A DNA stretch of 41,164 nt from Planctomycetaceae bacterium. GTDB lineage: Bacteria > Planctomycetota > Planctomycetia > Planctomycetales > Planctomycetaceae. Where the stretch lies: the NCBI GenBank assembly GCA_028284885.1, contig JANQQW010000281.1:1-41164 (forward strand). Direction: 5' to 3'. Shown here in pieces: positions 200 through 18,296 of this stretch (position 1 is the stretch's first letter; every line of letters begins with the position of its first letter). The notes beneath the pieces were generated by a model. It made no database searches. It was not told where the DNA came from and was given only the letters and a program-made list of their open reading frames with translations. Both the position numbers and the translations under genes were made by a program.

Positions 200-390
200 C
201 CTGCGGGACGCCGCCGGACTTCAACGTCTTCCCGGACGCGCTGGAGCTGAACTACGAGCCGGACCGGCACGCTGGGCCGTCCGAGGTGATGTCGCTGGTG
301 GAGTTGAAGGGCCGCGTCGGGCATCCGGCGTTCGGCTTCCAGACCGACTTCGAGCTGGCGAACCGGTTGGTCGTCCCACATGTTGGGTCG
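200..390 (+). pseudogene. Possible gene fragment with coding-like codon use
   Basis: From about 200 to 390, the frame read from position 145 has G or C at almost every third codon position and a protein-like composition (for example NVFPDALELNYEPDRHAG and GHPAFGFQTDFELANRL). After about 390 the same frame becomes arginine- and serine-rich and no longer looks coding. This suggests a truncated or frameshifted gene remnant. I do not recognise the family. No convincing start or ribosome binding site is visible. It lies downstream of the minus-strand operon that ends at 1039. It could also be chance in GC-rich DNA. Confidence 0.25.
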
Positions 391-473
391 GAGTTCGACC
401 GAGATCGACTTTGGCGATCACGGGTCAGATTCGGAACGGCGAGTAGGGGACGAGTCCGTTGTAGAGTCTCGGG

Positions 474-2328: not shown

Positions 2329-2330
2329 GG

Positions 2331-4847
2331 TCACCTCGTGCGGAAGGCTTCGCTGCGAACGATCGCGTGGATCAGCGCTCGCAGCCGGTGGTCTCGTTCT
2401 TCGGTCTCTGCCACGATGGCGGCGACCGTCTCCTGGTCGGAGAAGCCGATCGAACGTCCGAGTCCGTAGGTCATCATCGCCTCGGCGAGCCCCTCGGTGA
2501 AGGCCCTGCGGTCCTCGAGGAGTCGCTGCTTCAGTTCGAGCGGCCCGGCGAACGACCGGCCGTCCGGCATCGTCCCCCTCGCGTTCACGGGAAACGTCAG
2601 GCTGCCGTCGACCGAGCGGACCTCCTCGCGCCAACGGCCGACGGGGTCGAAGTTCTCGAGAGCGAAGCCGAGTGGGTCGATGCGGCGGTGGCACGAGGCA
2701 CACTGTGGGTTCGTCTGGTGCCGCGCGAGCGTCTCCCGGATCGACCGCGTGCCGACCGTCTCCTCGTCGAGCATGGGGACGTTGGCCGGGGCGGGTGGCG
2801 GTGGGCGGTTCAGCAGTTTCCGTAGGACGAAGGCCCCACGCTCGACCGGCGACGTACGGTCCCCGGTCCCGGTCAGCGTGAGGATGGCCGACTGCCCGAG
2901 CAGTCCGCCCCGTGGATCGCCTGCCGGGCGCGGCACCACGCGGAATTCGTCGCCGACGACCCGGTCCACTCCGTAGAACTCGGCCATCAGCGCGTCGACG
3001 ACGAGGAAGTCGGACTCGACGAGGCTGGTGATCGGTCGGTTGTCGCGCATCATCGTCTCCAGGAAGGCGACGACCTCCCGCCGGGACTGCCGGTGAACGG
3101 CTTCGTCGTAGTGCGGGGACGCAGCCGCGCTCGGGTCGATCGCCTGCAGCCGGTCCAGTTCCAGCCATTGTGTGGCGAAGTTCTCGACGAACGCCCTCGA
3201 CCGCGGTGAGTCGAGCATCCGCTCGACCTGCTCGGCCAGTCCCTCGTCGCTGCGGAGCGAACCGCTCTCAGCGGCTCGGTAGAGGTCCTCGTCGGGCGGG
3301 GCACTCCACAGGAAGTAGGCGAGGCGGACGGCGATCTCGCGCTCCGAGAGCGGTCCCCGCGGCTCGTCGTCCGCCTTCGGTTCGCCGAGGAACAGAAACC
3401 GGGGCGTGGCTAGGACGACGGTCAGCGCGTCCTTCAGCGCATCGAGCGGCTCGTCCCCCCGCTCGAGCGAGGCATCGTGGATGGCGATCAATCGGTCGAC
3501 GTATGCCGGATCGGGCGTCTCGTGTCGGAAGGCTTCGTACGCGAACCGTTCGACGAGTGTGCGAATCTCGGTGTCATCGAGTTCCGCGACCTTCCGATCC
3601 CCGAACAGCTGCGATTCGGACAGCGGAGCCGGGTTCTCCGGCAACGGCCCCTCGATCTCGACCCAGTCGATCCACAGGTCGGGCCGCGTGTCCTCCTCCA
3701 ACTCCTCGACCAGTCTGTACTTGAAGAAGTAGTCGCGGGCGTCAGCGTACTTCTCCAGCGTCTCCCGACGGACGTCTCGGCGGGAGAACGTGAGGCGGTT
3801 CGAGCGAAGGTTGTCGACTTCGTACGTGAACGCGATCGTCTGCGGCTCGTCGTACGTCCCGGTGAGGTGGTGGTAAGTGATGTCATCCGGGACCTTGCTG
3901 CGGTACTCGCCGCGGACGACTTGGAGAAACACGTCGTCGGGCGGGTTGTCGGCGACGATCCCGAGCCGGACGCGGACGGCGTACGTGCCGGTCGGCGGCT
4001 CGCGTCCGGAGGTAGTCCACGTGGACGGATTGAGGCCGTGGAACGGCACGAGCGTGCCGGTCGCCGTCTCGGGGCGTGAGAGGTAGTCGTTCGAGAGAGC
4101 GATCTCCGTCCGCGAGATGTCCCGCCGGAGGACGTGGTCCTTCCGGCCAGCCGCGATCGACTTGTCGAAGCCCTCGACCTTCTTCTCCAGCCGCGGGATC
4201 TCCTCACGAATCTTCCGGGCCTCGCCTTCCGGTTCGTGACGTTGCCTGACGGGTTTCGGCCGCTTGCCGGACGTGGGATAGGCGGCATCGAGGACGCGGC
4301 GGCCGAGCATCAGGTACCGTTCGAGGTGCAGCGACGAGAAGCCCTGCGCGCCGCCGTTCGTGTCGAAGCCGTCGACGATCGCATCCTCGGGCAGCATCGA
4401 GACATCGACCGGCACACCGAAGAGGGCGTCGATCGTGCGGGCGTACTCGCGGCGGTTGAGCCGTCGGACGACGACCTTGCCGCCGGTGTCGGCGAGCCGC
4501 TCGCGAGCCTCGAGCAGATTTCCGGTCAGCGCCTCGATGGCGTTCGAGGTTTCCTCCCGCGGCGGCCGTGGCTCTCCTTCGGGCGGCATCTCACCGAGGT
4601 TGAGCACGTCCAGGACGTCCTGCCACTGCAGTGCAGCGGTCCCGTCCGCGATCGACTTGGGCATCGTGTCGAACCGGACTTCGGCGTTCTGCTCCTCTGG
4701 TCCGTGACAACGGGCACAGTGCGTGGCGAGGAACGCGGTCACGTTCGGCGAGATGCGTGCCGCGTCGTCGGCATGGGCCGTGTGAACGCTTGCCGCCAAC
4801 ACGACCAGCGTGCACAGCGGCGAGGATGGGAGACGGGACGTCGACAT
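2331..4847 (-). CDS. PSCyt1/DUF1592 planctomycete cytochrome protein (pair 1)
   Basis: An 838-aa secreted multi-domain protein. It has a signal peptide (residues 1-27, ending HTAHA) and a PSCyt1 heme motif C44-A-R-C47-H48. A DUF1587 block (VVRRLNRREYARTIDALFG, from about 125) follows, then a beta-rich insert (about 245-400) resembling a carbohydrate-binding module. DUF1595 begins near 425, DUF1592 near 500 (ISEREIAVRLAYFLW-like), DUF1588 near 646 with a second CxxCH (C716-A-S-C-H720), and DUF1585 lies at the C-terminus. Two heme sites imply electron transfer outside the cytoplasm; substrate and partner are unknown. The stop is two bases before its DUF1552 partner. No Shine-Dalgarno is visible at the ATG, and 37 bases separate it from the upstream gene. 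This is the full-length form of the family. Confidence 0.92.
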   Translation of the reverse strand: MSTSRLPSSPLCTLVVLAASVHTAHADDAARISPNVTAFLATHCARCHGPEEQNAEVRFDTMPKSIADGTAALQWQDVLDVLNLGEMPPEGEPRPPREETSNAIEALTGNLLEARERLADTGGKVVVRRLNRREYARTIDALFGVPVDVSMLPEDAIVDGFDTNGGAQGFSSLHLERYLMLGRRVLDAAYPTSGKRPKPVRQRHEPEGEARKIREEIPRLEKKVEGFDKSIAAGRKDHVLRRDISRTEIALSNDYLSRPETATGTLVPFHGLNPSTWTTSGREPPTGTYAVRVRLGIVADNPPDDVFLQVVRGEYRSKVPDDITYHHLTGTYDEPQTIAFTYEVDNLRSNRLTFSRRDVRRETLEKYADARDYFFKYRLVEELEEDTRPDLWIDWVEIEGPLPENPAPLSESQLFGDRKVAELDDTEIRTLVERFAYEAFRHETPDPAYVDRLIAIHDASLERGDEPLDALKDALTVVLATPRFLFLGEPKADDEPRGPLSEREIAVRLAYFLWSAPPDEDLYRAAESGSLRSDEGLAEQVERMLDSPRSRAFVENFATQWLELDRLQAIDPSAAASPHYDEAVHRQSRREVVAFLETMMRDNRPITSLVESDFLVVDALMAEFYGVDRVVGDEFRVVPRPAGDPRGGLLGQSAILTLTGTGDRTSPVERGAFVLRKLLNRPPPPAPANVPMLDEETVGTRSIRETLARHQTNPQCASCHRRIDPLGFALENFDPVGRWREEVRSVDGSLTFPVNARGTMPDGRSFAGPLELKQRLLEDRRAFTEGLAEAMMTYGLGRSIGFSDQETVAAIVAETEERDHRLRALIHAIVRSEAFRTR

Positions 4848-4884
4848 GGGAGGGTGGTCTCGTGTCGTTGGCTACGTCGGCGTT

Positions 4885-6270
4885 TCAGGCGAGCAGCAGT
4901 TCGATTGGTCCGTTCGCGTCCAGACCGGTGCGTTTACCATCGAGGTTGAAGTGGTCCCGTTCGTCGCCGGCGGCGTGGAGCAGCGTGGCGTAGAGGGCGT
5001 TCGTCGTGCGGCTGTCGTCGTGCGGGGAGAGTGGCAGGTGCAGGTACCGGCCGCTTCGCAGTCGACCACCGAAGTCACCGATCAACAGATACGGCCACCG
5101 GTCCCCGGTGGAGTGCTGCGTCTCGCCGTGGCAGCTCGTGTAGACGATCAACGTGTGGTCCATCATGGAGCCGTTCCCCTCCGGGATCGACTCGAGGCGA
5201 CGGACGACGCGGAGGAGTTGCTGCATGTTGTGCCGCCGGAGCACGAGCCAGTCGTCTTCCTCCTCCTGGTTGGTGTGGCCGATCGAGTGGCCGACGTGCT
5301 CGAGGCCCAGCCCCTCCCACGAACCGGCCGCGGTGCAGAGACCGGAGGCGATGGTGAGGACGTTCGTCACCCCCGCGACCATGGCGGCGAGTCCGACGTC
5401 GAGACCCGCCTCCCACCAGTCGGTCTCGAACTTCGGTTCGGTGAACTTCGCGGTCACCGTCGGCGCATGTTCGCGAAGGACGTCGGTCATCGCCTGCAGT
5501 CGCCGACGCTGTCGGGCAATCGTTTCGAGGCCTTCCACGTACGGGGCGAACTTGCGGCGCTCGTCGCCGCCGAGCCGGGCGTCCAGGGCCCGTGCGTCGG
5601 TGCCGACGAAGTCGAACAACTCGGTCTCCGCCTCGAACTCCTCGCGGGCCCGACCGGCCTTGGCGACCCCGAAGAGGTTGTCGAACGCCAGCATCGGATC
5701 GCAGTAGATCGGGGCCGGGAGACTCGCCCCCCAGGCTGACGACGCGTACGCCACCCGGCTGGCCCGCATCTTCGGCAGCGACTCCCATCCGAACGCGAGC
5801 AGCGGCACGACGGCCGGGAGCCGCCGTGCGAGGGCACAGTCGATCGTCTCGCCCTCCGGTGTGCTCGCCGACTTCTTGAACCCGCCCAGCGCCCCGAACG
5901 GCGCTCCGTGGTAGGGGGCGACGTGCTTCCCGTTGAGCCCGTGGACGATCGTGACGCGGTCCTTGATCGGCTCGAGCGGGTCGATCCATCGCGGCAGGGC
6001 GTGGTCGGCGAGCGGTTCGTCGACCACGCGGTCCAGCCGGTCCTGGAACTTCCGCATCTCCTTCTGTTCGTCGACTTTGCCGTCCGGGAAGTCGATGCTC
6101 CGCGGATGCGCGTGGGCTGGGCAGAACCCGTGGTTCTGCAGGAAGAAGACGACTCGACGTGGGCCGTCCGCACCCTCCGGACTCGCGCTCGCGAGGTGCG
6201 GCCAGACGAGCGGGCCGGCCAGCGTGCCCCCCGCGAGGCCCTTCAGCAGTGTGCGGCGGTCGAGCGTCAT
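4885..6270 (-). CDS. DUF1552 Tat-exported protein (pair 2, divergent)
   Basis: A 461-aa DUF1552 protein with a Tat-type signal (DRRTLLKGLAGG, cleavage near LASASP). The family histidine signature appears as H325-V-G-H328-S-I-G-H332, followed by an acidic run (QEEEDD), unlike the other two copies in the window. The C-terminal DHTLIVYTSCHGETQHS block corresponds to the region that reads DNSLVVYGSG or DRTMVMQGSN in the other copies. The sequence is clearly more distant from pairs 1 and 3 than those are from each other. The ATG overlaps the stop of the upstream cytochrome gene in an ATGA arrangement, implying translational coupling. Function is inferred only as the exported partner of that cytochrome. 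Confidence 0.88.
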   Translation of the reverse strand: MTLDRRTLLKGLAGGTLAGPLVWPHLASASPEGADGPRRVVFFLQNHGFCPAHAHPRSIDFPDGKVDEQKEMRKFQDRLDRVVDEPLADHALPRWIDPLEPIKDRVTIVHGLNGKHVAPYHGAPFGALGGFKKSASTPEGETIDCALARRLPAVVPLLAFGWESLPKMRASRVAYASSAWGASLPAPIYCDPMLAFDNLFGVAKAGRAREEFEAETELFDFVGTDARALDARLGGDERRKFAPYVEGLETIARQRRRLQAMTDVLREHAPTVTAKFTEPKFETDWWEAGLDVGLAAMVAGVTNVLTIASGLCTAAGSWEGLGLEHVGHSIGHTNQEEEDDWLVLRRHNMQQLLRVVRRLESIPEGNGSMMDHTLIVYTSCHGETQHSTGDRWPYLLIGDFGGRLRSGRYLHLPLSPHDDSRTTNALYATLLHAAGDERDHFNLDGKRTGLDANGPIELLLA

Positions 6271-8417
6271 GGGGACTTTGGCTCCTCGTTGGTCGTCGGG
6301 ACGACGGTGCGGAACAGGAACGCATCGGACACGAGCAGGCTGGCGACGAGTTCCCGCAGGCTGCCGTCGTTTCCCGCGTAGGCGGCGTGGGCGGCCCGCA
6401 GGACCGGGCCGTCGGCCGGGGTCTCGTTGCGCCCCGTCCAGAAGCGGAAGGCGTGACGTACGAAGACCTGTTCGACCCGCTCCGACTTCGCCAGTCGGTG
6501 CACCAGTTCGACGGCGTTCTCGACCGGGCCGTCCAGTTCCGCGAGACCGGTGTCGAAGACCGCGCCGGACGAGTCGACCGACCGCCCGAGTTCCTCGGTC
6601 CGATGCCGGCCGAAGTGGTCGAACATCTGGAAGGGCAACCCGAGCGGATCCATCCGCCGGTGACACTGCCAGCAGTACTCCTCGCGGGTCACCCGCATGC
6701 GATGTCGCAGTTGCTCGTGCGGTTCGTCGGGGAGTTGGGCGTCGACGGTGATCGGCGTGTCGGAGATCGATCCGCCGAGCAGACGTTCGCGGATCCACTT
6801 GCCGCGATGGATGGCGTGGTTGTCGGTGTTGGTGGAGTGGGCGATCAGCCAGGCGGGTTGGGTGAGAACGCCCGCCCGCTGCTCCGAGTCGAGCGGCAAC
6901 GGCATCTCGACGCGCCAGTTCTCGGCCGCCAGCCCGTACAACTCGTTGAGGCGGTTCTTCTTGTCGAACGGATGCTTGGCAGGCTCCTCGCCCTTTGCAC
7001 GGGCCTGCTCCTCCCGCCGTTTCGCGAACTTCACCCAGTTGGGAACGCTGGAGACGCTGACGAACGACTCCGGCGTGGTCAGCAACTCACGGAGAACTTG
7101 CCGGTCTCGTTCGAGGACGTGCAGCACGAGCCGGTCGGTGTCCTCCACGAGCGAGTCCGGGTAGTACCGGCCGATCTTCGCCGCCGAGACGACCGAGTCG
7201 TCCTTGAAGACGTCCGGCGCCGACGCGTACCCGAAGTACTCGCGGAGGAATCGGAGCAGGGTCGGCGTCTCTGCTTCGGGATCGGCTAGACGACGGCGGA
7301 CCTCCCGTTCGACGTCGTCCCGCGTTTCCAGTCGCCCCTCTCGAACGGCGGCGATCAGTGCTTCGTCCGGGGCGGCGTCCCGGAGTGCGTGCGAGATCGC
7401 GTGGGCGATCTCCAGCGGGGCCAGCATCACCCGGCCGTGCTCGTCCGGTTCGCCCCGCCCGAGTTCCAGCCGGAACACGGCCTCTGGGTGCAGCAGGACC
7501 GCAGAGAGACCGAGAACCGCGCCGTCCTCGTTCCCCAGCCGCTCGACGTTCTTCCGCACGAAGGCTTCGTACCGCGCGGCCTCGTCCTCGGTCGGGCCGC
7601 GCCTGAGCGCCCGCTCGAACACGAACCGCACGGCCGCGGCGACCTGTTCGTCGGTTGGCTCGTCCTGGTTGAGTGCCAAGTCGGTCAATTCGCGCGCCGC
7701 GGCGCGGGGCCCTCGTCTCTTGAGACCGAGTTCGAGCGTCAGCCGTGCGTTCATGGCCAACCGTTCGATCTCCGAGGCGGCGATCCGGTATCGAAATGCA
7801 TAGTCACGAATCCCGGCATCGGTCGTGAGCCCGAACGGGACGGCGACGACCGGCTTGCCACGGCTCCCGATCCGGCCGAACTTCAATCCCACGAGTCCGT
7901 TCGTGAGCCCGTCCGTCGTCGAGCGGTACTCGACTGGGTTCACGCGCCAGATGCGGGCCGGTGTCGACGCGGGGCGGTCGCCGTCGCCAGTTTTCTCCGT
8001 CCTCCCGGGTGTGAACAGCCAGTCGTGCGGCACGACGTTGCCCTTCGACGGAAACGCCCATTCGCCTGCGTAGAGGTTCCCGCCGGCAGTCCGGAAGAGC
8101 GTCTCGAACTCGGTGACGACACGACGAATCTCGTCGCGGCCCGGTCGCGGTTCGTCCAGCGGGGGCATGTCACCGGTCGTGATCCGTTCGACGACGTGCC
8201 GCCAGCTCGCCGCCTCGCCCGGCAACCGCGCGGCGACGACATCCAGCCTCAACCCGGCCTCAGGCTCGTCGGCACCATGACAGCTGGTGCAGTGCCGCCC
8301 GAGGAACGCCCGCGTTCCCTGCGAAAGCGTTCTCGACGCGCCGGTTTCCTGACCGCGGGTCACGGTCGACGCGAGCAGAAGCCCCAACGCGATACTCAGC
8401 GACCACAGTCCTGCCAT
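6267..8417 (-). CDS. PSCyt1/DUF1592-like cytochrome protein, short form (pair 2)
   Basis: A 716-aa secreted heme protein. It has a signal peptide (residues 1-22) and a PSCyt1 motif C43-T-S-C46-H47 followed by the usual MPPLDEPRPGRDE block. A second CxxCH lies near residue 581 (CWQCHRRMDPLGLPFQMFD), which is the DUF1588 signature. It lacks the DUF1587 block and the carbohydrate-binding-like insert of pairs 1 and 3 and is over 120 residues shorter. The DUF1592-type region (about 330-450) is also divergent. I chose the ATG at 8417, because GGAG lies five bases upstream and a normal signal peptide follows; an ATG at 8447 is in frame but has poor spacing. It appears to be the first gene of the minus-strand operon running to 1039. 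Confidence 0.88.
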   Translation of the reverse strand: MAGLWSLSIALGLLLASTVTRGQETGASRTLSQGTRAFLGRHCTSCHGADEPEAGLRLDVVAARLPGEAASWRHVVERITTGDMPPLDEPRPGRDEIRRVVTEFETLFRTAGGNLYAGEWAFPSKGNVVPHDWLFTPGRTEKTGDGDRPASTPARIWRVNPVEYRSTTDGLTNGLVGLKFGRIGSRGKPVVAVPFGLTTDAGIRDYAFRYRIAASEIERLAMNARLTLELGLKRRGPRAAARELTDLALNQDEPTDEQVAAAVRFVFERALRRGPTEDEAARYEAFVRKNVERLGNEDGAVLGLSAVLLHPEAVFRLELGRGEPDEHGRVMLAPLEIAHAISHALRDAAPDEALIAAVREGRLETRDDVEREVRRRLADPEAETPTLLRFLREYFGYASAPDVFKDDSVVSAAKIGRYYPDSLVEDTDRLVLHVLERDRQVLRELLTTPESFVSVSSVPNWVKFAKRREEQARAKGEEPAKHPFDKKNRLNELYGLAAENWRVEMPLPLDSEQRAGVLTQPAWLIAHSTNTDNHAIHRGKWIRERLLGGSISDTPITVDAQLPDEPHEQLRHRMRVTREEYCWQCHRRMDPLGLPFQMFDHFGRHRTEELGRSVDSSGAVFDTGLAELDGPVENAVELVHRLAKSERVEQVFVRHAFRFWTGRNETPADGPVLRAAHAAYAGNDGSLRELVASLLVSDAFLFRTVVPTTNEEPKSP

Positions 8418-9205
8418 CTGAGCTCCGAAATGGTGACGGTTTGTCATTCTCCGTTGTTGGAGCCGCGATTCGAAGGCCCGATCCGCGGCGACTGGGCCTC
8501 GACCCACAGGAAGTCGGCGGACCGAACAGGCTCTGCGCTACCGCCGCCCGGGGAGCCGTGACGAGCTGCCCAAGGTCATGCGGCCGGCGAGAGCCCCAAC
8601 TCCACGTCCAGACGAGCGGCGACTACTGTGGACTGACGTGTTCCTGCCGAGGTTGGCCCCCACTTGCTTCACGACGACCCGCTCGGCGTTCACCGCCAGG
8701 TGCGCGCGAACGCGTTGCCGCCTCTTCGGGGCTCCCTGATTCTCGTCCCGTTGGTTCAATGGCGCCGAGAGCCTGCCGATCTCATCGACTACCAACTCCC
8801 TCCGGGAGACGACCCCGAAGAGGAGACCGGTTTCATCGGCGATCCCGCATTGACCGTGCAGGCATCACGTGGGCGTTGAAAACCGGTGGGGGCGAGCGGT
8901 CACTCGTCTTTGCGGTTCCCCCGCGAACGTCGTGACCTGCGTGCCAACGTCTCGATGCGATGCACGTCGGTTCAACGAACATCTTCGATGTCGTTCGACG
9001 TGGTCGGCCTCTGGGACGGGAAGGTTCTCCAGTGGATGAACCGTCGGTCGGTGCGGTGCGCGCGAACTCAGGCCAAGGTGACGAACGCGAACGCCTACGG
9101 CACTGCAAAGAGCGTTGGCGCGGGCAAACTGCGGAAATCGTGGTAACCGAATCCGGTCGAGTGCTATTCCAGAGGGTGGAGTGAGGTGCTGAACGGGAGG
9201 CCGAG
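8418..9205. other. 788-bp intergenic region between divergent operons
   Basis: This stretch separates the minus-strand cytochrome operon from the plus-strand sigma-factor operon and should hold both promoters. Several short open frames cross it on both strands, but none has a recognisable motif, a convincing start or consistent third-position G/C bias. I see no tRNA, terminator or repeat in it. The only firm signal is GGGAGG five bases before the sigma-factor start at 9206. Confidence 0.5.
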
Positions 9206-9781
9206 GTGGGGAAGCGAACCGAACTCGACGAGTGCGTCCGCCGCGTGCAACGGGGCGACGTGGAGGCCTTCGAGGTGATCGTCCGCGACCATCAGGCGGA
9301 GATCCGGGGATGGATCGTCTCACGCTGCCCGCCGCTGGGGGACGCGGACGAGGTCGCGCAGCGAACGTTCGTCGAGGCGTTCCGCCGGATTGGGGACTAC
9401 GATCCGGGAACGAATCTGCGGGCGTGGCTGTTCACGATCGCTCGCTACCAGTTGATGGCCGAGTGCACACGAGTCGAACGGCTGGCCGACTACCACAGCC
9501 GCTACGTCCCGTACGCCCTCAGCCGCGAGCTGGAGCGCCGCGTCACAGACGCGACGGTCGACGAACCGGAGCGGCTGACCTTCCTTCAGGAGTGCCTGAC
9601 GGGGGTGGAGTCGAAGGCGCGAAGTCTCCTCGACTGGCGGTATCGCGACGAACTGCCGCTCGCGGAGATCGCCGCACGCACGGAGCGGAGCGTGGGTGCG
9701 ATCAAGAAACACCTGTTCGCCCTCCGCCAGAAACTGCACGACTGCATCCAACGGAAACTTGCCGAGGAGGCAGCCTCGTGA
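9206..9781 (+). CDS. ECF RNA polymerase sigma factor (planctomycete/Verrucomicrobium type)
   Basis: A 191-aa extracytoplasmic-function sigma factor. Region 2 (about 15-85) has the DEVAQRTFVEAFRRI helix and the TNLRAWLFTIARYQLM core and promoter-melting segment. Region 4 (about 130-185) carries the helix-turn-helix ELPLAEIAARTERSVGAIKK and a trailing RQKLHDCIQRKL. The start is GTG at 9206, preceded by GGGAGG at five-base spacing. Its stop overlaps the GTG of the membrane anti-sigma gene (GTGA), the usual sigma/anti-sigma coupling. The expected role is to switch on genes in response to a cell-surface or periplasmic signal; the neighbouring cytochrome/DUF1552 genes are the obvious candidate targets. 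Autoregulation is likely but I could not identify the promoter. Confidence 0.93.
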   Translation: MGKRTELDECVRRVQRGDVEAFEVIVRDHQAEIRGWIVSRCPPLGDADEVAQRTFVEAFRRIGDYDPGTNLRAWLFTIARYQLMAECTRVERLADYHSRYVPYALSRELERRVTDATVDEPERLTFLQECLTGVESKARSLLDWRYRDELPLAEIAARTERSVGAIKKHLFALRQKLHDCIQRKLAEEAAS

Positions 9782-11493
9782 ACGCACCCGGCGACGGACG
9801 ATTCGAGGATCTCTGGACGGACTTTCTCGAGGGGGAGCTTTCGGAGGATCACGTTGAACAGCTCGATCGGTTGCTCGCGGACGACGACACGTTGCGGCAA
9901 CGGGCCGCCTCGCTCTACGAGGAACACCGGCTGCTCGGGTTGTTGCACCAACCGTTCGACGTCGAGACCTTCGTGGCCGAGAGCCGCCGCCGAATCGCCA
10001 CCGACGGAGACGGGTTCGTCAGGAGGGTGACCGGGTCGTTGGGGCCTCCGCTGGAAGAAGGCCGAGGGCGTTCGTCTCGCCGTTGGGTGGGGTACGTGGT
10101 CGTCTCCGTGACGGCCGTGGTGCTGACACTCGCGATCGACTGGCTCACCGAGAGCGTGCCGAGTGGCGGCGTCGAGTCGCGGATCGGCGAGCGTGGCCTC
10201 GAAGACGAGGAGACTCCACGGATCGCGGAGCCAACCGCGGTGGCAACGCTCGATCGGTGCAACGACTGCAAGTGGAGAGACGCGACCGAGCAACGGGAAG
10301 GATCACGGTTGGAGCCCGGGCGGCTGCGCCTCGACTCCGGAACGGCGGTCGTTCGCTTCGACGGCGGAGCCCTCGCCCTGCTGACCGGCCCCGCGGAACT
10401 CGTCGTCGAGTCGGACGACTCCGCCCGGTTGATCGCCGGTGACGTCACGATTCACGCTCCGGAAGAGGCGATCGGTTTCACCCTGCGAACCCCGGGCCAC
10501 GAGATCATCGACCTCGGGACCGAGTTCCACGTGGCGGTCGGGGAGGCCGGCGAGACCGCTGTTGAGGTTCTCGACGGTGAGATCGAGACACGGCCGCGGA
10601 ACGGCGGCGAGCAGCGGGGCCGTATCCTCGAGCGGGGCCGGGCCGTACGACTCGATCCCGACGGAGCAGTTCGCGACGAGGCATTCGCCCCCGCCACGCC
10701 GCGATTCCACACGCGGTTGGCCGAAATGCGCAGCAACGGACCGAGTGGTCGCGTCGTCGCGAGTGAGAGTTTCGAGTATCCGCCCGGCCAACACGAGCAC
10801 TTGAACGGAGGATCGGGCTGGCGGACGCCGTGGCGGGAACGTCGAGGCACGGAACTCGTTCACTCGGAACACGACGACACCAGCCGGATGAACGTCGTCC
10901 GGGCCCCCATGGTCTTCGCGCCGTTCCTCGGCGACAACGCCGATGGCCGGTCGGTACGGTTTCCCGCCGGCCCGAATTATCGGCTGCGCGAGCTCGCCCA
11001 GCCGATCGACCTCGGTCGAGACGGCGTCCACTTCGTCAGCTTCCTCGGCTATCGCGACGCGGGCCGGGCACCGAACTCCGTGCTGCGGCTCACACTGCGG
11101 TCGAGCGAGGACTACTGGGGCGACACGGTGGGCCTCGGCTTCCCGCGGGCACGTCGTCCGCACGCCCACCTCGGTACGTTTCGCGAGGCCGTTCCGTCGG
11201 CGGCACGGTTCGTCCGCGATGTCCCACTCCTGTGGGTCGTGAAGATCACCGCACGTGCGGAGGGGCCAGACGAACTGGCCGTCCGCATCTACGAACCTGA
11301 CGAGACGATCCACCTGCTCGAACCGTCGCTGTGGACGATCGAGCTCGAGGGAGCCGACTCCGATGCGAAGCTCGATGTTCTCGTCCTCACGGCGAACGGT
11401 GGCTTGGCACAGTGGTTCGACGAACTCCGTGTCGGCACGAGTTGGGAAGCCGTGACGAGCCACGTTCGCGACACCGACGAGCGGGCGCCCTGA
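9778..11493 (+). CDS. FecR-type anti-sigma factor with C-terminal lectin-like domain
   Basis: A 571-aa membrane protein. Residues 1-75 form an acidic, helical cytoplasmic segment (LWTDFLEGELSEDHVEQLDR) typical of the sigma-binding part in this planctomycete family, without zinc-binding cysteines. One transmembrane helix spans about 103-122. A FecR domain (about 180-275) with the signature IIDLGTEFHVAV follows on the outer side, and about 320-571 is beta-rich and resembles a concanavalin/LamG-like jelly roll. The likely job is to hold the ECF sigma factor at the membrane and release it when the external domain senses a ligand, possibly a polysaccharide; that ligand is inference. It begins at GTG 9778, overlapping the sigma stop by four bases. 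Two cysteines (C162, C165) lie just before the FecR domain. Confidence 0.85.
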   Translation: MNAPGDGRFEDLWTDFLEGELSEDHVEQLDRLLADDDTLRQRAASLYEEHRLLGLLHQPFDVETFVAESRRRIATDGDGFVRRVTGSLGPPLEEGRGRSSRRWVGYVVVSVTAVVLTLAIDWLTESVPSGGVESRIGERGLEDEETPRIAEPTAVATLDRCNDCKWRDATEQREGSRLEPGRLRLDSGTAVVRFDGGALALLTGPAELVVESDDSARLIAGDVTIHAPEEAIGFTLRTPGHEIIDLGTEFHVAVGEAGETAVEVLDGEIETRPRNGGEQRGRILERGRAVRLDPDGAVRDEAFAPATPRFHTRLAEMRSNGPSGRVVASESFEYPPGQHEHLNGGSGWRTPWRERRGTELVHSEHDDTSRMNVVRAPMVFAPFLGDNADGRSVRFPAGPNYRLRELAQPIDLGRDGVHFVSFLGYRDAGRAPNSVLRLTLRSSEDYWGDTVGLGFPRARRPHAHLGTFREAVPSAARFVRDVPLLWVVKITARAEGPDELAVRIYEPDETIHLLEPSLWTIELEGADSDAKLDVLVLTANGGLAQWFDELRVGTSWEAVTSHVRDTDERAP

Positions 11494-11525
11494 CGTCTCC
11501 GACCCCCGTCACCGATACACCGGTC

Positions 11526-11540
11526 TCGTCTCCGAGACGA
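11526..11540. promoter_or_regulatory. 15-bp near-perfect palindrome before the TTG-start gene
   Basis: TCGTCTC-C-GAGACGA is a perfect 7-bp inverted repeat around one base, 26 bp before the start of the next cytochrome gene. It lies in the 73-bp gap after the anti-sigma gene. It could be an operator or an attenuating hairpin; the sequence alone does not decide. Confidence 0.3.
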
Positions 11541-11566
11541 ATCGGACTCACCCCGAGGACCCACCC

Positions 11567-14113
11567 TTGAACCGCCCCGCTCGACGCCGCCTGTTCGTGT
11601 TCGTGTCCTTGGCCTGGACGTCCACGCTCGCTGCGGCCGAGGCCCCCTCGAGCGCTGCGACCTTCGTCCGCGCCCACTGCCTGGACTGCCACACCGGCGA
11701 CGAGGCCGAGGGGCGGCTCGATTTGTCGACGTTCCCGTGGTCGCCGGACGATCGGGAGAACCAGACTCGCTGGGTGGCGATCCACGATCGCGTTCGAAAC
11801 GGAGAGATGCCTCCAGCAGAGGCCGAGCAGCCCGCCGACGAGGAACGGGCCGCAATGCTGGAGTCGCTGGCGGTCTCGCTGCGTACGACGGAACTCGCCC
11901 GACGGGAGCGCGAGGGACGCTCGGAACTGCGGCGGCTCAGCCGAGTCGAGTTCGCCAACGCCCTCAAGGACGTGCTCGACCTGCCGGATCTCGAACTCGC
12001 CGAGATGCTTCCGCCGGACGGGCTCGCCCACGGCTACGCGAAGAGCGCGAAGGCGCTCGACTTCTCGCACGTGACGGTCACGAAGTACCTCGAAGTTGCC
12101 GACTACGCCCTGCGACAGGCTCTCGCCAAGCGGGCGAGAGGCCTCCCACGCCAAGTCGTGCGATCCGAGCTGAAGAGCGTCGACGGCGTGAAGGACACGC
12201 TGCAGACGCTGTACGTGCAACTCAAGCAGACGAGCGGAATGCCGCTCGTCGGGCTCGAACGGGACCCCACGCTCGACGTCTACCGCGGGAACTTCCAGAA
12301 ACGCGAGCCCGGTTACGTGAAGGACCCGGAGCCGAGGTTCGACGGCGTCGCCACCTTCATGAACTACCGAGCCAACCACAACGTCGTCGTGAAGCCGTTC
12401 AAGGTGAAGCAGACCGGCCTCTACAAACTCCGCGTGCACGGCTGGGGGCTCCGGAACGACCACGGGAAGCTCGTCCCCAGCGACCGTACCGAGACGATCG
12501 CCTTCTACACGCCCACCGGCCGGCTGCTGGGCCGCTGCGACGTGCCGCCAAACGAGCCGACGACGAGTGAGTGCACCGCGTGGCTGCGGGAGGGGGAGCC
12601 GGTCGAGTATCTCGCCATCTCCGTCCCGAATCGCTGGTTCAAACTCCCCGGCCGGGACGAGCCGATGTTCGAGCGGTTCGACGCCTACGGGGTCGGGCTC
12701 CGCTGGTTCGAGATGGAGGGGCCACTCGACGAGTGGCCGCCGAAGAGCCACCGCATCCTGCTGGACGACCTCGAACTCGAGCCGACCGGCGAACTGCCGA
12801 ACGGCCTCGCGTACCGCGTGGTCGTCGAGAGTCCGAAGCAGGAGGTCGCCCGGCTGATTCGCCGCTTCGCCCGTCGAGCGCTTCGTCGGCCGGTGACGCA
12901 GGCCGATGTCGAGACGCCGATCCGACTCGCCCGGCAACGGCTGAACCGCAAGGAGCCGTTCGTCGAGGCGCTGCTCGCCGGCTACCGGGCGGTGCTCGTC
13001 TCCCCGGCCTTCCTGCTCGTCGACGAACGGCCGGGCGAACTCGATGCCTGGGCGCTCGCCACGCGGCTGTCGCTGTTCCTAACGAACTCCCCCTTGGATG
13101 CCGAACTCCGCGCTGCCGCGGCGAGCGGCGAGATCCTGGACGACGACGTCCTCCGCCGACAGACCGAGCGACTGCTCGACGACCCACGCAGCGGCCGCTT
13201 CGTCGAGCATTTCCTCGACCACTGGCTGAGCCTCGCCGACATCACACTCACCGAGCCGGACGAGAATCTGTACCCGGAGTACAACACGCTGCTCGCCGAG
13301 TCGATGGTCGAGGAGACCCGGGCCTTCTTCGCCGAGATGCTCCGCGAGGATCTCCCGGCGCTGCACGTCGTCGACTCGGACTTCCTGACGATCAACCAGC
13401 GGATGGCGAAGTTGTACGGCATCGACGGCGTGCACGGCTCGCACACGCGGCGCGTGCCGATTCCGGCCGACCACGTTCGCGGCGGACTGCTCACGCAGGG
13501 AAGCCTCCTCAAGATCACGGCGAACGGCACGACCACCTCGCCCGTCGTGCGGGGGACGTTCACACTGGATCGACTGCTGGGCGATCCGCCGCCGCCACCC
13601 CCACCTGCGGTACCCGCCATCGAACCGGACATCAGCGGGGCGACGACGATCCGCGAACAACTCGCCCAACACCGGGCGGACCCCGCCTGTGCTTCCTGCC
13701 ATGCCAAGATCGACCCACCCGGCTTCGCCCTCGAGAGCTTCGACGTGATGGGCGGTTACCGCGACCTCTACCGGACCACTCTCGATGGAGGCGGGGGGGA
13801 GCGTCCCGAGACCGAGTACAACGGGAAACGGGTCCGTTACGTGATCGGCAAGCCGGTCGACTCCGCTGGCGAACTGTCGGACGGCACGCCCTTCGAGAAC
13901 GTCAACGGCTTCCGCGATCTGCTCCGCAAGCACGAGGAGGCGATCGCCCGGAATCTGCTCGAACAGTTCGTCGTCTACTCGACCGGCCGCCCCGTCGGAT
14001 TCGTCGACCGCCCGCTGGTGGACGACACGATGCAACGGCTCGCCGAGTCCGACCACGGCGTGCGATCGATGATCCACGAGGTCGTGCAGAGCGACCTGTT
14101 TCGCCGCAAATAG
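11567..14113 (+). CDS. PSCyt1/DUF1592 planctomycete cytochrome protein (pair 3)
   Basis: An 848-aa secreted protein. It has a signal peptide (1-24, ending LAAAEA), a PSCyt1 heme motif C38-L-D-C41-H42 and DUF1587 (LRRLSRVEFANALKDVLDL, about 125-190). A beta-rich insert at about 265-390 is likely a carbohydrate-binding-like module. DUF1595 lies near 425-480, DUF1592 near 490-610, DUF1588 with a second CxxCH at C708-A-S-C711-H712 and a proline run before it, then C-terminal DUF1585. Domain order matches pair 1. The start appears to be TTG at 11567, with GAGG upstream and the signal peptide beginning directly after; no ATG or GTG gives a better leader. Downstream, after a 92-bp gap with a nested inverted repeat, comes its DUF1552 partner. 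Confidence 0.92.
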   Translation: MNRPARRRLFVFVSLAWTSTLAAAEAPSSAATFVRAHCLDCHTGDEAEGRLDLSTFPWSPDDRENQTRWVAIHDRVRNGEMPPAEAEQPADEERAAMLESLAVSLRTTELARREREGRSELRRLSRVEFANALKDVLDLPDLELAEMLPPDGLAHGYAKSAKALDFSHVTVTKYLEVADYALRQALAKRARGLPRQVVRSELKSVDGVKDTLQTLYVQLKQTSGMPLVGLERDPTLDVYRGNFQKREPGYVKDPEPRFDGVATFMNYRANHNVVVKPFKVKQTGLYKLRVHGWGLRNDHGKLVPSDRTETIAFYTPTGRLLGRCDVPPNEPTTSECTAWLREGEPVEYLAISVPNRWFKLPGRDEPMFERFDAYGVGLRWFEMEGPLDEWPPKSHRILLDDLELEPTGELPNGLAYRVVVESPKQEVARLIRRFARRALRRPVTQADVETPIRLARQRLNRKEPFVEALLAGYRAVLVSPAFLLVDERPGELDAWALATRLSLFLTNSPLDAELRAAAASGEILDDDVLRRQTERLLDDPRSGRFVEHFLDHWLSLADITLTEPDENLYPEYNTLLAESMVEETRAFFAEMLREDLPALHVVDSDFLTINQRMAKLYGIDGVHGSHTRRVPIPADHVRGGLLTQGSLLKITANGTTTSPVVRGTFTLDRLLGDPPPPPPPAVPAIEPDISGATTIREQLAQHRADPACASCHAKIDPPGFALESFDVMGGYRDLYRTTLDGGGGERPETEYNGKRVRYVIGKPVDSAGELSDGTPFENVNGFRDLLRKHEEAIARNLLEQFVVYSTGRPVGFVDRPLVDDTMQRLAESDHGVRSMIHEVVQSDLFRRK

Positions 14114-14119
14114 CCATCG

Positions 14120-14180
14120 TGGGGCACACCTCTGGTGTGCCAGAGTCTCCCCGAGAATGGCACACCAGAGGTGTGCCCCA
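14120..14180. repeat. Nested inverted repeat (REP-like), two perfect 23-bp arms
   Basis: The arms at 14120-14142 and 14158-14180 are exact reverse complements, separated by 15 bases. Each arm is itself a hairpin: GGCACACC-TCT-GGTGTGCC has a perfect 8-bp stem with a 3-nt loop. The element fills most of the 92-bp gap between the cytochrome and DUF1552 genes of pair 3. It resembles a paired REP/BIME-type element. No other copy is visible in the window. It could stabilise the upstream mRNA or lower expression of the downstream gene. Confidence 0.85.
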
Positions 14181-14205
14181 CATTCGAACGACCTTCGAGA
14201 AAGTC

Positions 14206-15498
14206 ATGCCCCACTTCGCCAAGAAGACGCACCTCTCACGTCGCACGCTCCTCCGAGGTGCCGGGGCGGCAATGGCGCTTCCGCTGCTCGACGCCATGAT
14301 CCCCGCCTTCGCCAAGGCTCCCGAGGAGTTGACGACGCCGCGGCGGATGATCGCAGTCAACGTCGACCTCGGATTCCTGCCAGAGGAGTTCTTTCCGAAG
14401 CGGGCGGGCAAGGACTACGAACCGTCGCCGTATCTGAAGGTGCTCGGCGACTTCCGCGACGACTACACGGTCTTCAGCGGCGTCTCGCACCCGGAGGTCG
14501 ACGGGGGCCACCAGGCGGACGTCTCGTTCCTCACCGGAGCGCCGCACCCGACCTCGGCCGGCTTCAAGAACACCATCTCGCTGGACCAGTTCGCCGCGCA
14601 GCACATCGGCCACCTCACTCGCTTTCCGACGCTCAATCTCCGCGTCGGCCCCGGGGCGGGGTCGTTGGCCTATACCGCGGACGGCGTGCGGCTGCCGTCG
14701 GAGATGCGGCCCTCGGCCGTCTTCCGCGAGTTGTTCGTGCAGGGCTCGCCAGACGAGATCGAGGCCCAGGTGCGCAACCTCCGCGAGGGACGCAGCCTGA
14801 TGGATGCCTTCGCAGACCAGATCAAGACCCTCGAGGGGAAGGTCAGCGGGGCGGACAAGCGGCGGCTCGAGCAGTACTTCTCCTCCGTTCGCGAGGTCGA
14901 GCAACGCCTGCGGATGAACGAGGAGTGGGAACGGCGACCCAAGCCCGAGGTCGACGTGCAGCCGCCCAAGGACGTGCTCGATCCCGGAAAGCTCGTCGAC
15001 CGAACCCGCAACATGTACGACCTCGCCCGGCTCGCCCTCGAGACCGACTCCACGCGGCTCGTAACGATACTCGTCACGCAGGGCTTCAACCCCAAGGTCG
15101 ATCTCCCCGGTGTCGACCTCCCGCACCACGCGCTCACACACCAGAGCCAGAAGAAGGACTCACGCGAGCAACTCACGACCATCGAGGAGGCCCAGATGGG
15201 TGAACTCGCACGCCTACTGGGCGGTCTGCGTTCGGCGAACGAGGACGGCGAGACTCTGCTCGACCGCACGATGGTCATGCAGGGGAGCAACCTCGGTCAC
15301 GCCGGCAAGCACGACAACCGCAACCTGCCGGTGTTGCTCGCCGGCGGCGGGTTCCGCCACGGGCAACACCTCGCCTTCCATCGCACCCACAACGAGCCAC
15401 TGGCGAACCTCTACGTCAGCATGCTGCAACGGCTGGGCATCGAGGCGGACCGCTTCGCGTCCGGGACGAAGACGATCAACGGGTTGGAGGCGGTCTGA
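14206..15498 (+). CDS. DUF1552 Tat-exported protein (pair 3)
   Basis: A 430-aa DUF1552-family protein with a Tat-type leader (SRRTLLRGAGAAMALPLLDA, cleavage after AFAKA). The HxxSHH-like motif reads H307-H308-A-L-T-H312, close to the family consensus and at the same position as in pair 1. A helical, charged stretch (about 190-245) and the C-terminal block DRTMVMQGSNLGHAG, then NEPLANLYVSMLQRLGI, match pair 1. It is the export partner of the cytochrome at 11567. The ATG at 14206 has only a weak GAGA upstream and sits 25 bp after the nested inverted repeat, so its translation may be influenced by that structure. Its stop overlaps the start of the next gene (TGATG). Confidence 0.9.
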   Translation: MPHFAKKTHLSRRTLLRGAGAAMALPLLDAMIPAFAKAPEELTTPRRMIAVNVDLGFLPEEFFPKRAGKDYEPSPYLKVLGDFRDDYTVFSGVSHPEVDGGHQADVSFLTGAPHPTSAGFKNTISLDQFAAQHIGHLTRFPTLNLRVGPGAGSLAYTADGVRLPSEMRPSAVFRELFVQGSPDEIEAQVRNLREGRSLMDAFADQIKTLEGKVSGADKRRLEQYFSSVREVEQRLRMNEEWERRPKPEVDVQPPKDVLDPGKLVDRTRNMYDLARLALETDSTRLVTILVTQGFNPKVDLPGVDLPHHALTHQSQKKDSREQLTTIEEAQMGELARLLGGLRSANEDGETLLDRTMVMQGSNLGHAGKHDNRNLPVLLAGGGFRHGQHLAFHRTHNEPLANLYVSMLQRLGIEADRFASGTKTINGLEAV

Positions 15499-16586
15499 TG
15501 GTCGGTGAACGATCCTCACCGGCGATGAATCGCCGCCGGGCGCTGAGTGTGCTCGGCGCGGCCGCCGCAGCCGCGACGTTCGGTCGCTCGGCGATCGGGG
15601 ACGACGGTCCGCCGCGACGCACCGGTATGGGCCTCGTGATCTACTGCCAGCGGTACCGCCGCGAGCAGTTGAAGCAGCAGGAGAACGTCGATCTCTACGA
15701 GCCGCTGCGATTTCTCGAACACTGTCGCGGCCTCGGTGCCGGTGGCATTCAGGCCGGCCTCGGCGTGCTCGACGCCTCCGACGCGAATCGGCTTCGCAAG
15801 CAAGCCGACGCGTGGAACACGTACGTCGAGGCGATCATCAAGCCGCCGAAGGACGACGCCGACGAGGAACGGTTCGAGGCCGAGGTGCGAACGGCGAAGG
15901 AGGTGGGGGCGGTCGCCGCGCGGACGACGATCATTCCCGGCCGCCGCTACGAGCGGTTCGACACGCTCGCGGAATACCGTCGGTACTCGGCTCGCGGAAG
16001 GAAGATGCTCGAACGGGCGGCTCCGATCGTCGAGAAGCACCGCCTGCCGTTCGCAGTCGAGAATCACAAGGACCACCGCACCGACGAGCGGGTCGCACTC
16101 TTCGAGCACGTCGGCAGCGAGTACGTCGGGGCCTGCATCGACACCGGCAACACGTTCGCGCTCCTCGAGGACGCTCAGGAGACCGTCGCCGCCCTCGCCC
16201 CGTGGGCGTTCTCCGTACACCTCAAGGATCAGGGGGTGAAGGAGTACGAGGACGGCTTCCTTCTCGCGGAAGTCCCGCTCGGCAGGGGAATCTTCGACCT
16301 GAAGCGGATGGTCGAGACGCTCGTGAAGGCGAAGCCCGACGTGCGGTTCAGCTTGGAACTCATCACCCGCAACGCCCTGAAGGTCCCCGTCCTGACCGAC
16401 GGCTACTGGGCGACGTTCCCCGACATCCCCGGTCACGACCTTGCCCGGACGATGAGGACCGTGCGAGAGAACTCGACCGAGTCGTTCCCCGACGTCGAGT
16501 CGCTGCCGCTCGACAAGCAGGTGGCCGTAGAGGAGAGGAACGTCCGCGAGAGCATCGAGTACGCGGGCAACGTCCTGAAAATCTGA
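15498..16586 (+). CDS. Secreted sugar phosphate isomerase/epimerase-like TIM barrel protein
   Basis: A 362-aa protein of the xylose-isomerase-like TIM-barrel (AP endonuclease 2) fold. The barrel shows strand-end motifs typical of metal-binding sugar isomerases: AVENHKDHRTDE (near 190), GACIDTGNTFALLED (near 215), SVHLKDQ (near 240) and SLELITRNAL (near 285). An N-terminal RRRALSVLGAAAAAATFG segment looks like a Tat or Sec signal, so it probably acts outside the cytoplasm, as many planctomycete members do. The exact reaction is unknown. The start ATG shares a base with the DUF1552 stop (TGATG), with GGAGG seven bases upstream; an in-frame ATG at 15525 is an alternative. A Gfo/Idh/MocA gene follows after 15 bases, a frequent pairing in sugar or inositol-type metabolism. 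Confidence 0.87.
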   Translation: MVGERSSPAMNRRRALSVLGAAAAAATFGRSAIGDDGPPRRTGMGLVIYCQRYRREQLKQQENVDLYEPLRFLEHCRGLGAGGIQAGLGVLDASDANRLRKQADAWNTYVEAIIKPPKDDADEERFEAEVRTAKEVGAVAARTTIIPGRRYERFDTLAEYRRYSARGRKMLERAAPIVEKHRLPFAVENHKDHRTDERVALFEHVGSEYVGACIDTGNTFALLEDAQETVAALAPWAFSVHLKDQGVKEYEDGFLLAEVPLGRGIFDLKRMVETLVKAKPDVRFSLELITRNALKVPVLTDGYWATFPDIPGHDLARTMRTVRENSTESFPDVESLPLDKQVAVEERNVRESIEYAGNVLKI

Positions 16587-16601
16587 ACGGAGCCGTCGAC
16601 G

Positions 16602-18038
16602 ATGTCCGCTCGAAGAAGCACGCGGCGCGATTTCCTTGCGAAGAGCACGCTCACCGCCGCCCCGCTGTTCGTCCCCTCACACGTCCTCGGCCGGGGCAGT
16701 CGCACCGCTCCGAACGACAGGATCGAGATCGCGGTTGTCGGCTGCGGCGTCCGCGGGAAGTACCTGATCGCCAACCTCCCCGACTCTGCCCGGGTGACCA
16801 CTCTCTGTGACTGCGCGGCCGATCGCATCGAGGGAGTCCGTCGGCCGAAGGAGAAGCCGTTCGACTCGATTCTCGCGGACTTCGCCGAGGGGGACGGCCG
16901 ACACTGCAGGACGTATGCCGACTATCGCCGACTGTTCGACGAGGCCAAGGCCGATGCCGTCGTCATCGCGACTCCCGACCACCATCACGCCCTCGCCGCC
17001 GTCCTCGCCTGCCGGGCGGGTCTTGACGTCTACCTCGAAAAGCCGCTCGCCCTGACGATCGCCGGCGGGCGGGCCGTCGCCGACGCGGTCGCCGAGCACG
17101 ACCGTGTGCTGCAGGTTGGCAGCCAACAGCGAACGATGGAGATCAACCGCTTCGCGTGCGAGTTCGTCCGCGACGGTGGTCTCGGGAAGGTCTCGCTCGT
17201 CGAGGTGCCGAACTACCCGGGACCGATCGACGGTGTTCGACTCGCCGAGCAGCCGGTTCCCGCAGGCTTCGACTGGGACCTCTTCCTGGGGCCCTCGTCG
17301 CGTCGTCCGTACAACCGGAAGTGGTGGGACAAGGACTCCTTCAAGGTCGGCCGGCTGACGTGGCGTGGTTGGGATCTCTTCCGCGACTTCTCCGGCCACC
17401 TCACCACGAACTGGGGTGCCCACAGCGTCGACATGGTGCAGTATGCCCTCGGGGCCGACGACACGGGTCCCGCCGAGGTCGCAATCGGCGAGGTCGACGA
17501 AGCCGCCATCGAGCGGGACTGGGTTGAGAAGTGGTCGAAGAAGACCCCCCGAGCAAGACGACCGTGGGGACGATCGACCCGCTTCCACCCCGTGACGATG
17601 AAGTACTCCGACGGGACCGAGTTGCGGTTCACTCCGGACGTCGACACCGCTGTCTTCCACGGCGAGAAGGGGACGATGAAGATCAGCCGCAACAAGTTCG
17701 TCGTCGACCCGGCGGACCTCGTCGTTGACGGTCCCGATCCGAGCATCGCCGCGAAGTGGGTGGGAGGCGGCCACGTCGCCCGGCCGCATCTCGAGAACTG
17801 GCTCGACTGCATCCGCACGCGGGGTGTTCCGAACGCCCCGGTCGAGGTCGGCCACCGCAGTGTGACCGTCTGCCACCTCGCCAACACGGTGCGGGAGCTC
17901 TCTCGTCCGCTTCGTTGGGATCCCGATGCCGAGCGATTCGCAAACGACGACGCGGCGAACGCCCTCCTTGATCGAGCACCGCGAGAGGGCTTCGGACTCC
18001 CGCCGGTGCGAGGATCGAACGTCGGGCCGAGGAACTAG
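16602..18038 (+). CDS. Gfo/Idh/MocA family oxidoreductase with Tat signal
   Basis: A 478-aa NAD(P)-dependent dehydrogenase-like protein. A Tat signal (STRRDFLAKS, hydrophobic run, FVPSHVLG) starts the protein. The Rossmann fold follows, with the GxGxxG-type AVVGCGVRGKY (about 44-54) and the catalytic-loop motif VYLEKPLALT (about 143-152), whose EKP lysine is the family signature. The C-terminal domain includes FRDFSGHLTTNWGAHSVDM and FHPVTMKYSDG. Tat export fits import of a folded, cofactor-loaded enzyme, as in glucose-fructose oxidoreductase. It lies 15 bases after the isomerase gene and ends this gene string. The stop TAG (18036-18038) is followed immediately by the end of an IS5-type transposase remnant, so the last few residues or the stop may have been set by that insertion. 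Confidence 0.92.
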   Translation: MSARRSTRRDFLAKSTLTAAPLFVPSHVLGRGSRTAPNDRIEIAVVGCGVRGKYLIANLPDSARVTTLCDCAADRIEGVRRPKEKPFDSILADFAEGDGRHCRTYADYRRLFDEAKADAVVIATPDHHHALAAVLACRAGLDVYLEKPLALTIAGGRAVADAVAEHDRVLQVGSQQRTMEINRFACEFVRDGGLGKVSLVEVPNYPGPIDGVRLAEQPVPAGFDWDLFLGPSSRRPYNRKWWDKDSFKVGRLTWRGWDLFRDFSGHLTTNWGAHSVDMVQYALGADDTGPAEVAIGEVDEAAIERDWVEKWSKKTPRARRPWGRSTRFHPVTMKYSDGTELRFTPDVDTAVFHGEKGTMKISRNKFVVDPADLVVDGPDPSIAAKWVGGGHVARPHLENWLDCIRTRGVPNAPVEVGHRSVTVCHLANTVRELSRPLRWDPDAERFANDDAANALLDRAPREGFGLPPVRGSNVGPRN

Positions 18039-18051
18039 GTCGTGTTGACGA

Positions 18052-18141
18052 TCACGAGGCGTACTTGAGTGCGGCGACGGCGAGGAAACCGTTGAAGTTG
18101 GTGATGGGTTTGTCGTAGCGGGTGGCGATGCGGCGGGATCT
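18052..18141 (-). pseudogene. IS5-family transposase C-terminal remnant
   Basis: On the minus strand, 29 codons and a TGA read RRIATRYDKPITNF and then NGFLAVAALKYAS. The RRIATRYDK motif is typical of the C-terminus of IS5-type (IS427-like) transposases. In-frame stops and loss of similarity occur just upstream, so only the 3' end remains. The bases between its stop and the Gfo/Idh stop codon (18039-18051, GTCGTGTTGACGA) would correspond to the insertion-sequence end. I see no second end nearby. The interval 18142-18296 shows nothing else recognisable. Confidence 0.75.
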
Positions 18142-18296
18142 GTGCGGTGGGCCCAGTAAATCGAGGCGGTCGGCCCCGCCTCACGGGAAGCGGATCGTCT
18201 GCAGCTTCCGTTCGACGGTACGTTCCGAACACCCTGTCCGTTCGGTTTCGCGGACCGGCGGCCTCCCGAGTCGTCTGGAGCACGTCGCGTGTGCCG

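Follow-up and report, generated by a model that had tools for sequence, protein, structure and literature searches.

A predicted self-amplifying sigma factor operon for exported sugar-redox enzymes in a planctomycete

Six genes at positions 9206-18038 of a 41,164-nucleotide stretch of Planctomycetaceae bacterium DNA (contig JANQQW010000281.1, assembly GCA_028284885.1; the window) probably form a self-amplifying, one-operon sigma factor system for exported, non-hydrolytic sugar oxidation and elimination. The window is one whole contig of a 6.47-Mb draft genome. An extracytoplasmic function (ECF) sigma factor and a FecR-type anti-sigma factor head the row, followed on the same (+) strand by a planctomycete cytochrome, a DUF1552 protein, a xylose-isomerase-like triosephosphate isomerase (TIM) barrel and a Gfo/Idh/MocA oxidoreductase (Table 1); profile searches bore out these identities and their order as given in the first-pass annotation. 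The parts of this reading differ in strength. Based on sequence comparison, a dedicated self-amplifying sigma system is very likely and sugar-redox chemistry in general by the exported enzymes is somewhat favoured, while a specific 3-keto route, drawn from analogy, is tentative. As the row and its switch-specific promoter recur in distant relatives, proteins without an assigned function gain a specific regulator that is open to testing, along with a plausible role.

Gene order and a predicted sigma-dependent promoter

Cytochrome/DUF1552 pairs are common in the source genome, which holds 37 DUF1552 genes, so that their presence alone means little. The isomerase was used as a query against 148 genomes of the class, an isomerase alignment was run against the genome collection, and the neighbourhoods were read with local profiles. 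The gene order, whose conservation in other planctomycetes had been set as a check, recurs exactly (sigma-FecR-cytochrome-DUF1552-isomerase-Gfo) in two further genera within the family (G048 and G274) and with insertions in two more organisms. Stieleria tagensis keeps the row with one short-chain dehydrogenase (SDR) inserted, and Rhodopirellula europaea 6C has sigma-FecR-cytochrome-DUF1552-sulfatase-cytochrome-DUF1552-SDR-isomerase-Gfo. The full set is also present, rearranged, in G013 and PL25a_bin.67. Identities are 57-67% for the sigma factor (exceptions being PL25a_bin.67 with 41% and Stieleria L130 with 26%), 50-72% for DUF1552, 50-57% for the isomerase and 50-60% for Gfo. Since the best other DUF1552 protein in the window reaches 34%, the row genes are, as judged by identity, orthologues and not random family members.

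The enzyme module was also found without the sigma pair in further lineages. At two loci, in DLM2.Bin10 (divergent) and SKYG72 (same strand), a GntR/UTRA regulator stands directly before the module, in the position of the sigma pair; the two regulator genes lie at L086 9745-10515 and L087 7586-8425. This substitution is at least as compatible with a small sugar-like inducer as with the polymer that was first suggested. Sulfatase genes are frequent neighbours of the module in the neighbourhoods examined.

A putative promoter, GGTAAC-N15-GCTAT, was first spotted by eye in five upstream regions. It lies upstream of the sigma gene in the window, G048, G274, G013 and PL25a_bin.67, and in the window it ends 38 nt 5' of the sigma start codon. 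Four relatives, namely G048, G274, R. europaea and PL25a_bin.67 (locus L114), carry a second copy ahead of the cytochrome gene. The exact site occurs once in the source genome and twice in G048, there before the sigma and cytochrome genes alone; G274 has three, of which two are at the operon. In R. europaea, which served as an out-of-sample prediction, the only two genomic matches are before the sigma gene (66-67% identical) and before a cytochrome gene of the operon. In PL25a_bin.67, where the operon is split, one site stands on each of the two divergent halves. With C or T permitted at two -10 positions, the two-box site was present within 200 bp upstream of 28 of 33 subfamily sigma genes, against 0.002 expected from shuffles. 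Together with the second copy before the cytochrome in four relatives, this makes it very probable that the sigma factor drives its own gene as well as the enzyme genes. The window's other two cytochrome/DUF1552 pairs (1039-8507) show no extra copy before them.

The sigma factor matches TIGR02989 (Sig-70_gvs1, the Rhodopirellula/Verrucomicrobium subfamily) at 124.8 bits, above the cut-off of 124.55, and its G048 orthologue falls just below it at 123.0 bits. The -10 box is GCTAT in most DUF1552-type operons and GCCAT in a supported clade (99/95) whose members mainly head DUF1549/DUF1553-DUF1501 pairs. Exceptions are G301, which has GCCAT and a variant -35 box before a DUF1552 pair, and one Stieleria sigma factor with GTTAT that heads DUF1501 genes. 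A division into two clean sister clades was rejected, as the GCCAT sigma factors form a supported clade and the GCTAT sigma factors a grade around it. Residue 85 of the sigma factor (region 2.3-2.4) is Ala with GCTAT and Thr with GCCAT promoters, a difference confounded with clade, and is a candidate for the change in -10 specificity. In the GCCAT sister group (L186, L188, L189, L259, L261 and others) the -10 box is followed about 10 nt later by the sigma start codon, which suggests leaderless transcripts.

The sigma stop and anti-sigma start overlap in GTGA, the DUF1552 and isomerase genes overlap in TGATG, the isomerase and Gfo genes are 15 bp apart, and 73 bp separate the anti-sigma and cytochrome genes. 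A search of the window's intergenic gaps revealed neither a sigma-70-like promoter nor a classical terminator, so nothing recognisable isolates the sigma pair from the enzyme genes, and in relatives the sigma promoter itself is repeated before the cytochrome. With the conserved order, these features argue for the self-regulated unit originally proposed. Between the cytochrome and DUF1552 genes lies a hairpin with a perfect 24-bp stem (z -9.7) and no T tract. It is built from a dispersed palindrome, GGCACACCTCTGGTGTGCC, with 8 genomic copies (at most 1 mismatch), and contig C96 shows the same paired arrangement. The palindrome resembles a repetitive extragenic palindromic (REP) element, here inside an operon.

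The anti-sigma factor and the exported enzymes

In the anti-sigma factor a single transmembrane helix separates the N-terminal sigma-binding part from a periplasmic FecR domain. The FecR profile (PF04773) scores 22.8-22.9 bits in the window protein against a cut-off of 24, and the orthologues pass at 27-30 bits. The outer domain had been called lectin-like, and this name found no backing: residues ~320-571 have no Pfam match up to E 1, and profile comparison (hhalign) with a planctomycete Laminin_G_3 set gave a probability below 1%. An AlphaFold model built from three sequences only was poor over this domain and too weak for a fold search. As the domain is conserved at 28-35% among orthologues, it is real, and only its name is unsupported. 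The anti-sigma factor consists of three parts that vary separately. GCCAT sister systems have the N-terminal part and the FecR domain in common and an unrelated outer domain. In S. tagensis (L130, 2961-5125) another ECF sigma type is joined by an unrelated anti-sigma N-terminus, while the FecR domain, the outer domain and the enzyme genes are kept. These separate swaps fit an N-terminus that binds the sigma factor and an outer domain linked to signal recognition. As an exception, L218 combines this outer domain with DUF1549/DUF1501 genes.

Export signals, as initially noted, can be read from all four downstream proteins: a Sec-like leader in the cytochrome and twin-arginine leaders in the other three, with an RR pair that is invariant across all aligned orthologues. 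All six domains of a PSCyt3/PSD cytochrome and its adjacent PF07586 partner are present. The structural model of this DUF1552 partner (predicted local distance difference test 83) gave its best Foldseek match to a sulfatase (7.7e-6) and aligned with PafA (Z 17.7, root-mean-square deviation (rmsd) 3.8, 271 residues aligned) and ENPP7 (Z 17.6, rmsd 3.5, 246 aligned). The predicted fold is that of the alkaline-phosphatase/sulfatase superfamily, which includes sulfatases and phosphodiesterases. A sequence search of the PDB returned nothing meaningful. The protein contains no cysteine and no S-x-P-x-R, hence lacks the formylglycine motif (C/S-x-P-x-R) and is not an ordinary sulfatase. Conserved residues H102, D127, H308, H312 and H369 may bind metal.

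In the TIM barrel, E188, D215, H241 and E287 are invariant in all eight orthologues, which we take to be the metal-ligand pattern expected of metal-dependent sugar isomerases and epimerases. By sequence it has a single weak profile match in the PDB (8z1i, 0.0028) and weak similarity to ribulose-5-phosphate 3-epimerases. The best curated family for the Gfo/Idh protein is NF058561, the BT_2158 glycoside 3-dehydrogenase (2.6e-39), and PDB entries 8tdf and 8tdh match at ~1e-30. It also matches inositol 2-dehydrogenase (5e-15) and Zymomonas-type glucose-fructose oxidoreductase. No glycan-binding or depolymerising domain was found in the operon proteins.

Proposed function, alternatives and known systems

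At rest, the anti-sigma factor would keep the sigma factor at the membrane, as expected from its family. Once the ectodomain detects its signal, which is probably a periplasmic sugar or a sugar-derived product, the freed sigma factor would guide RNA polymerase to the two-box site identified by comparison. Levels of the sigma and anti-sigma factors would rise, and also those of the cytochrome, DUF1552, TIM-barrel and Gfo/Idh proteins, through read-through in this genome and through the second promoter in relatives. Gfo/Idh would then oxidise one carbon of a sugar, which in its nearest relatives is C3, and the isomerase-like enzyme might eliminate or rearrange the 3-keto intermediate. The cytochrome and its alkaline-phosphatase-fold partner could pass electrons or remove a substituent. 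In the levoglucosan pathway, isomerase-like proteins likewise stand beside Gfo/Idh enzymes, with C3 oxidation, elimination and hydration of 3-keto sugars (PMC7676230), and periplasmic 3-keto chemistry on disaccharides has been proposed (PMC9007349). Based on these parallels, the Gfo family match and the TIM-barrel residues, exported sugar oxidation and elimination is favoured with moderate confidence.

Several observations weigh against this reading. The window lacks the second promoter copy ahead of the cytochrome, which leaves enzyme control dependent on read-through over a 73-bp gap. Transcripts reaching DUF1552 and beyond must also pass a very stable hairpin, which may reduce the expression of the last three genes or uncouple it. 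An exact motif match is expected by chance about once per genome of this size, as estimated from base composition; genomic uniqueness is therefore weak evidence, and position and recurrence carry the argument. No sigma factor was detected at other enzyme-module loci (e.g. G110, G145, L136 and L121), GntR takes its place at two, and a close sigma factor (67%) in Stieleria heads DUF1549/DUF1501 genes instead. As for the chemistry, Gfo scores 135.1 bits against the NF058561 cut-off of 750, and DUF1552 and PSCyt/PSD are families without known function.

The gap, the hairpin and the occurrence of the module without a sigma factor could also mean that the sigma factor controls its own pair only, the enzyme genes being neighbours with their own promoters that stay together by chance or selfish-operon effects. 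This is improbable given the sigma promoter repeated before the cytochrome in four relatives, a gene order conserved across two families, and window gaps in which neither a sigma-70-like promoter nor a terminator was found. A general envelope or stress response (salt, temperature, oxidant), in which the cytochrome and DUF1552 protein repair or protect and no specific sugar is involved, is unlikely as well. In Rhodopirellula baltica an ECF sigma factor proposed to control a PSD1/PSCyt2 gene rises under three stresses, and the stress genes listed there also include one for a DUF1552 protein (PMC2754498). The absence of a known function for the FecR and PSCyt families would agree with such a role. 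However, in G048 and R. europaea the strict promoter is restricted to the operon, unlike a broad stress regulon, and some copies of the enzyme module come with a regulator of the GntR/UTRA class, whose usual ligands are sugars.

Possible, though doubtful, is that the isomerase-like and Gfo/Idh enzymes act as dehydrogenase plus isomerase or dehydratase on a small polyol or inositol-type substrate, with the cytochrome and DUF1552 protein serving a separate step such as de-esterification. The additional Gfo matches to inositol 2-dehydrogenase and glucose-fructose oxidoreductase, the epimerase similarity of the TIM barrel and the predicted DUF1552 fold would all suit this alternative. Yet glycoside 3-dehydrogenase is by far the best family match of Gfo, and the frequent sulfatase neighbours point to glycans. 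Exported sugar oxidation and elimination under its own sigma switch could be taken further, into a complete, cytochrome-linked, non-hydrolytic sugar-cleavage pathway in which PSCyt3/DUF1552 would be a new redox-coupled enzyme pair. The switch would then be interchangeable: within one sigma lineage, the change of the -10 base from GCTAT to GCCAT would largely have gone along with a change of anti-sigma ectodomain and of cytochrome-pair type. This extension is speculative.

ECF sigma control of a planctomycete cytochrome gene was proposed for R. baltica (RB10049-RB10051) by Studholme et al. (2004), as cited in PMC2754498. In such ECF/PSCyt-PSD clusters, too, the sigma factor is thought to control a PSD-domain cytochrome gene, and related sigma factors head DUF1549/DUF1553-DUF1501 pairs. 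Here, by contrast, a DUF1592/1588/1585 cytochrome is combined with DUF1552, an isomerase and Gfo/Idh, the anti-sigma ectodomain is a different one, and the -10 box is GCTAT instead of GCCAT. PSCyt clusters have been associated with carbohydrates through their context alone, and planctomycete PSCyt/PSD and DUF1552 genes lack any known role (PMC5615132). The first-pass annotation also likened the unit to SusCD-linked sigma systems. As in these and in FecI/FecR, a pair of ECF sigma factor and FecR-type membrane anti-sigma factor heads the target genes. That logic holds, whereas the genes beside the operon are cytochrome and DUF1552 genes, with neither a TonB-dependent receptor nor SusC/D among them (open reading frames of the window scanned in part). 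The anti-sigma factor further differs in bearing its own large extra ectodomain, and the targets are redox and sugar enzymes.

Gfo lies nearest to the BT2158 glycoside 3-dehydrogenase of 3-keto-glycoside pathways, and a 3-keto-disaccharide hydrolase domain is encoded in the window at 35844-38105. In contrast to those pathways, Gfo falls far below the cut-off, the operon itself contains no such hydrolase, all its enzymes look exported, and the planctomycete cytochrome/DUF1552 pair is added. The levoglucosan system (LgdA/LgdB1/LgdB2/LgdC) similarly joins Gfo/Idh with sugar-phosphate-isomerase-like enzymes for oxidation, elimination, hydration and reduction, but its cluster adjoins sugar ATP-binding cassette (ABC) transporter genes, with no cytochrome or sigma pair described there (PMC7676230). 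The window Gfo reaches 40.7 bits against a cut-off of 650 for levoglucosan dehydrogenase (NF052479). Thus, the planctomycete ECF plus PSCyt kind of system was known before, and the operon, its promoter and the regulator exchanges are new as far as the searchable literature reaches, a scope outside which the main ECF classification papers lie.

Planctomycetes carry dozens of PSCyt/PSD and DUF1552 genes, and a predicted promoter, a conserved operon and cultured relatives (R. europaea and Stieleria) make one pair testable. Once the inducer is identified, the substrate follows. The comparison of promoters and anti-sigma factors also offers a natural series for the joint change of ECF sigma factor, promoter and sensor.

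Coordinates and neighbouring genes

Table 1 Features of the sigma operon, with positions in the window or residues of the anti-sigma factor.
Feature	Location	Strand	Basis
Predicted ECF promoter GGTAAC-N15-GCTAT	9142..9167	+	Comparison of upstream regions; sole exact match in the 6.47-Mb genome
ECF sigma factor, 191 aa, GTG start	9206..9781	+	Sigma70_r2 5e-10, r4_2 7e-7
FecR-type anti-sigma factor, 571 aa	9778..11493	+	Profile search, orthologue comparison
Anti-sigma N-terminal sigma-binding region	residues ~1-100		
Anti-sigma transmembrane helix	residues 103-121		Single hydrophobic stretch
Anti-sigma FecR domain	residues ~150-300 (also placed at 197-270)		
Anti-sigma ectodomain, no assigned fold	residues ~320-571		
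Exported diheme planctomycete cytochrome (PSCyt1, PSD3, PSD5, PSD4, PSCyt3, PSD2; two CxxCH)	11567..14113	+	All six domains matched
Hairpin, 24-bp stem, -61.3 kcal/mol	14119..14181	+	REP-like palindrome, no T tract
DUF1552 (HXXSHH, PF07586) protein, Tat-type leader	14206..15498	+	Profile match 9e-75
Xylose-isomerase-like TIM barrel (AP_endonuc_2), Tat-type leader	15498..16586	+	Profile search
Gfo/Idh/MocA oxidoreductase, Tat-type leader, EKP motif	16602..18038	+	Profile search

Directly past the Gfo stop codon, positions 18039-18146 (-) read as the C-terminal remnant of an IS5-like transposase, which is likely where the conserved block ends. The further cytochrome/DUF1552 pairs at 1039-8507 (-), two in number, run divergently from the sigma operon. 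At 31416-38105 (-) the window encodes another cytochrome string of a different kind, in which a DUF1501 gene and a PSCyt2/PSD1 cytochrome are accompanied by a fusion of a sulfatase with the 3-keto-disaccharide hydrolase domain (PF06439).

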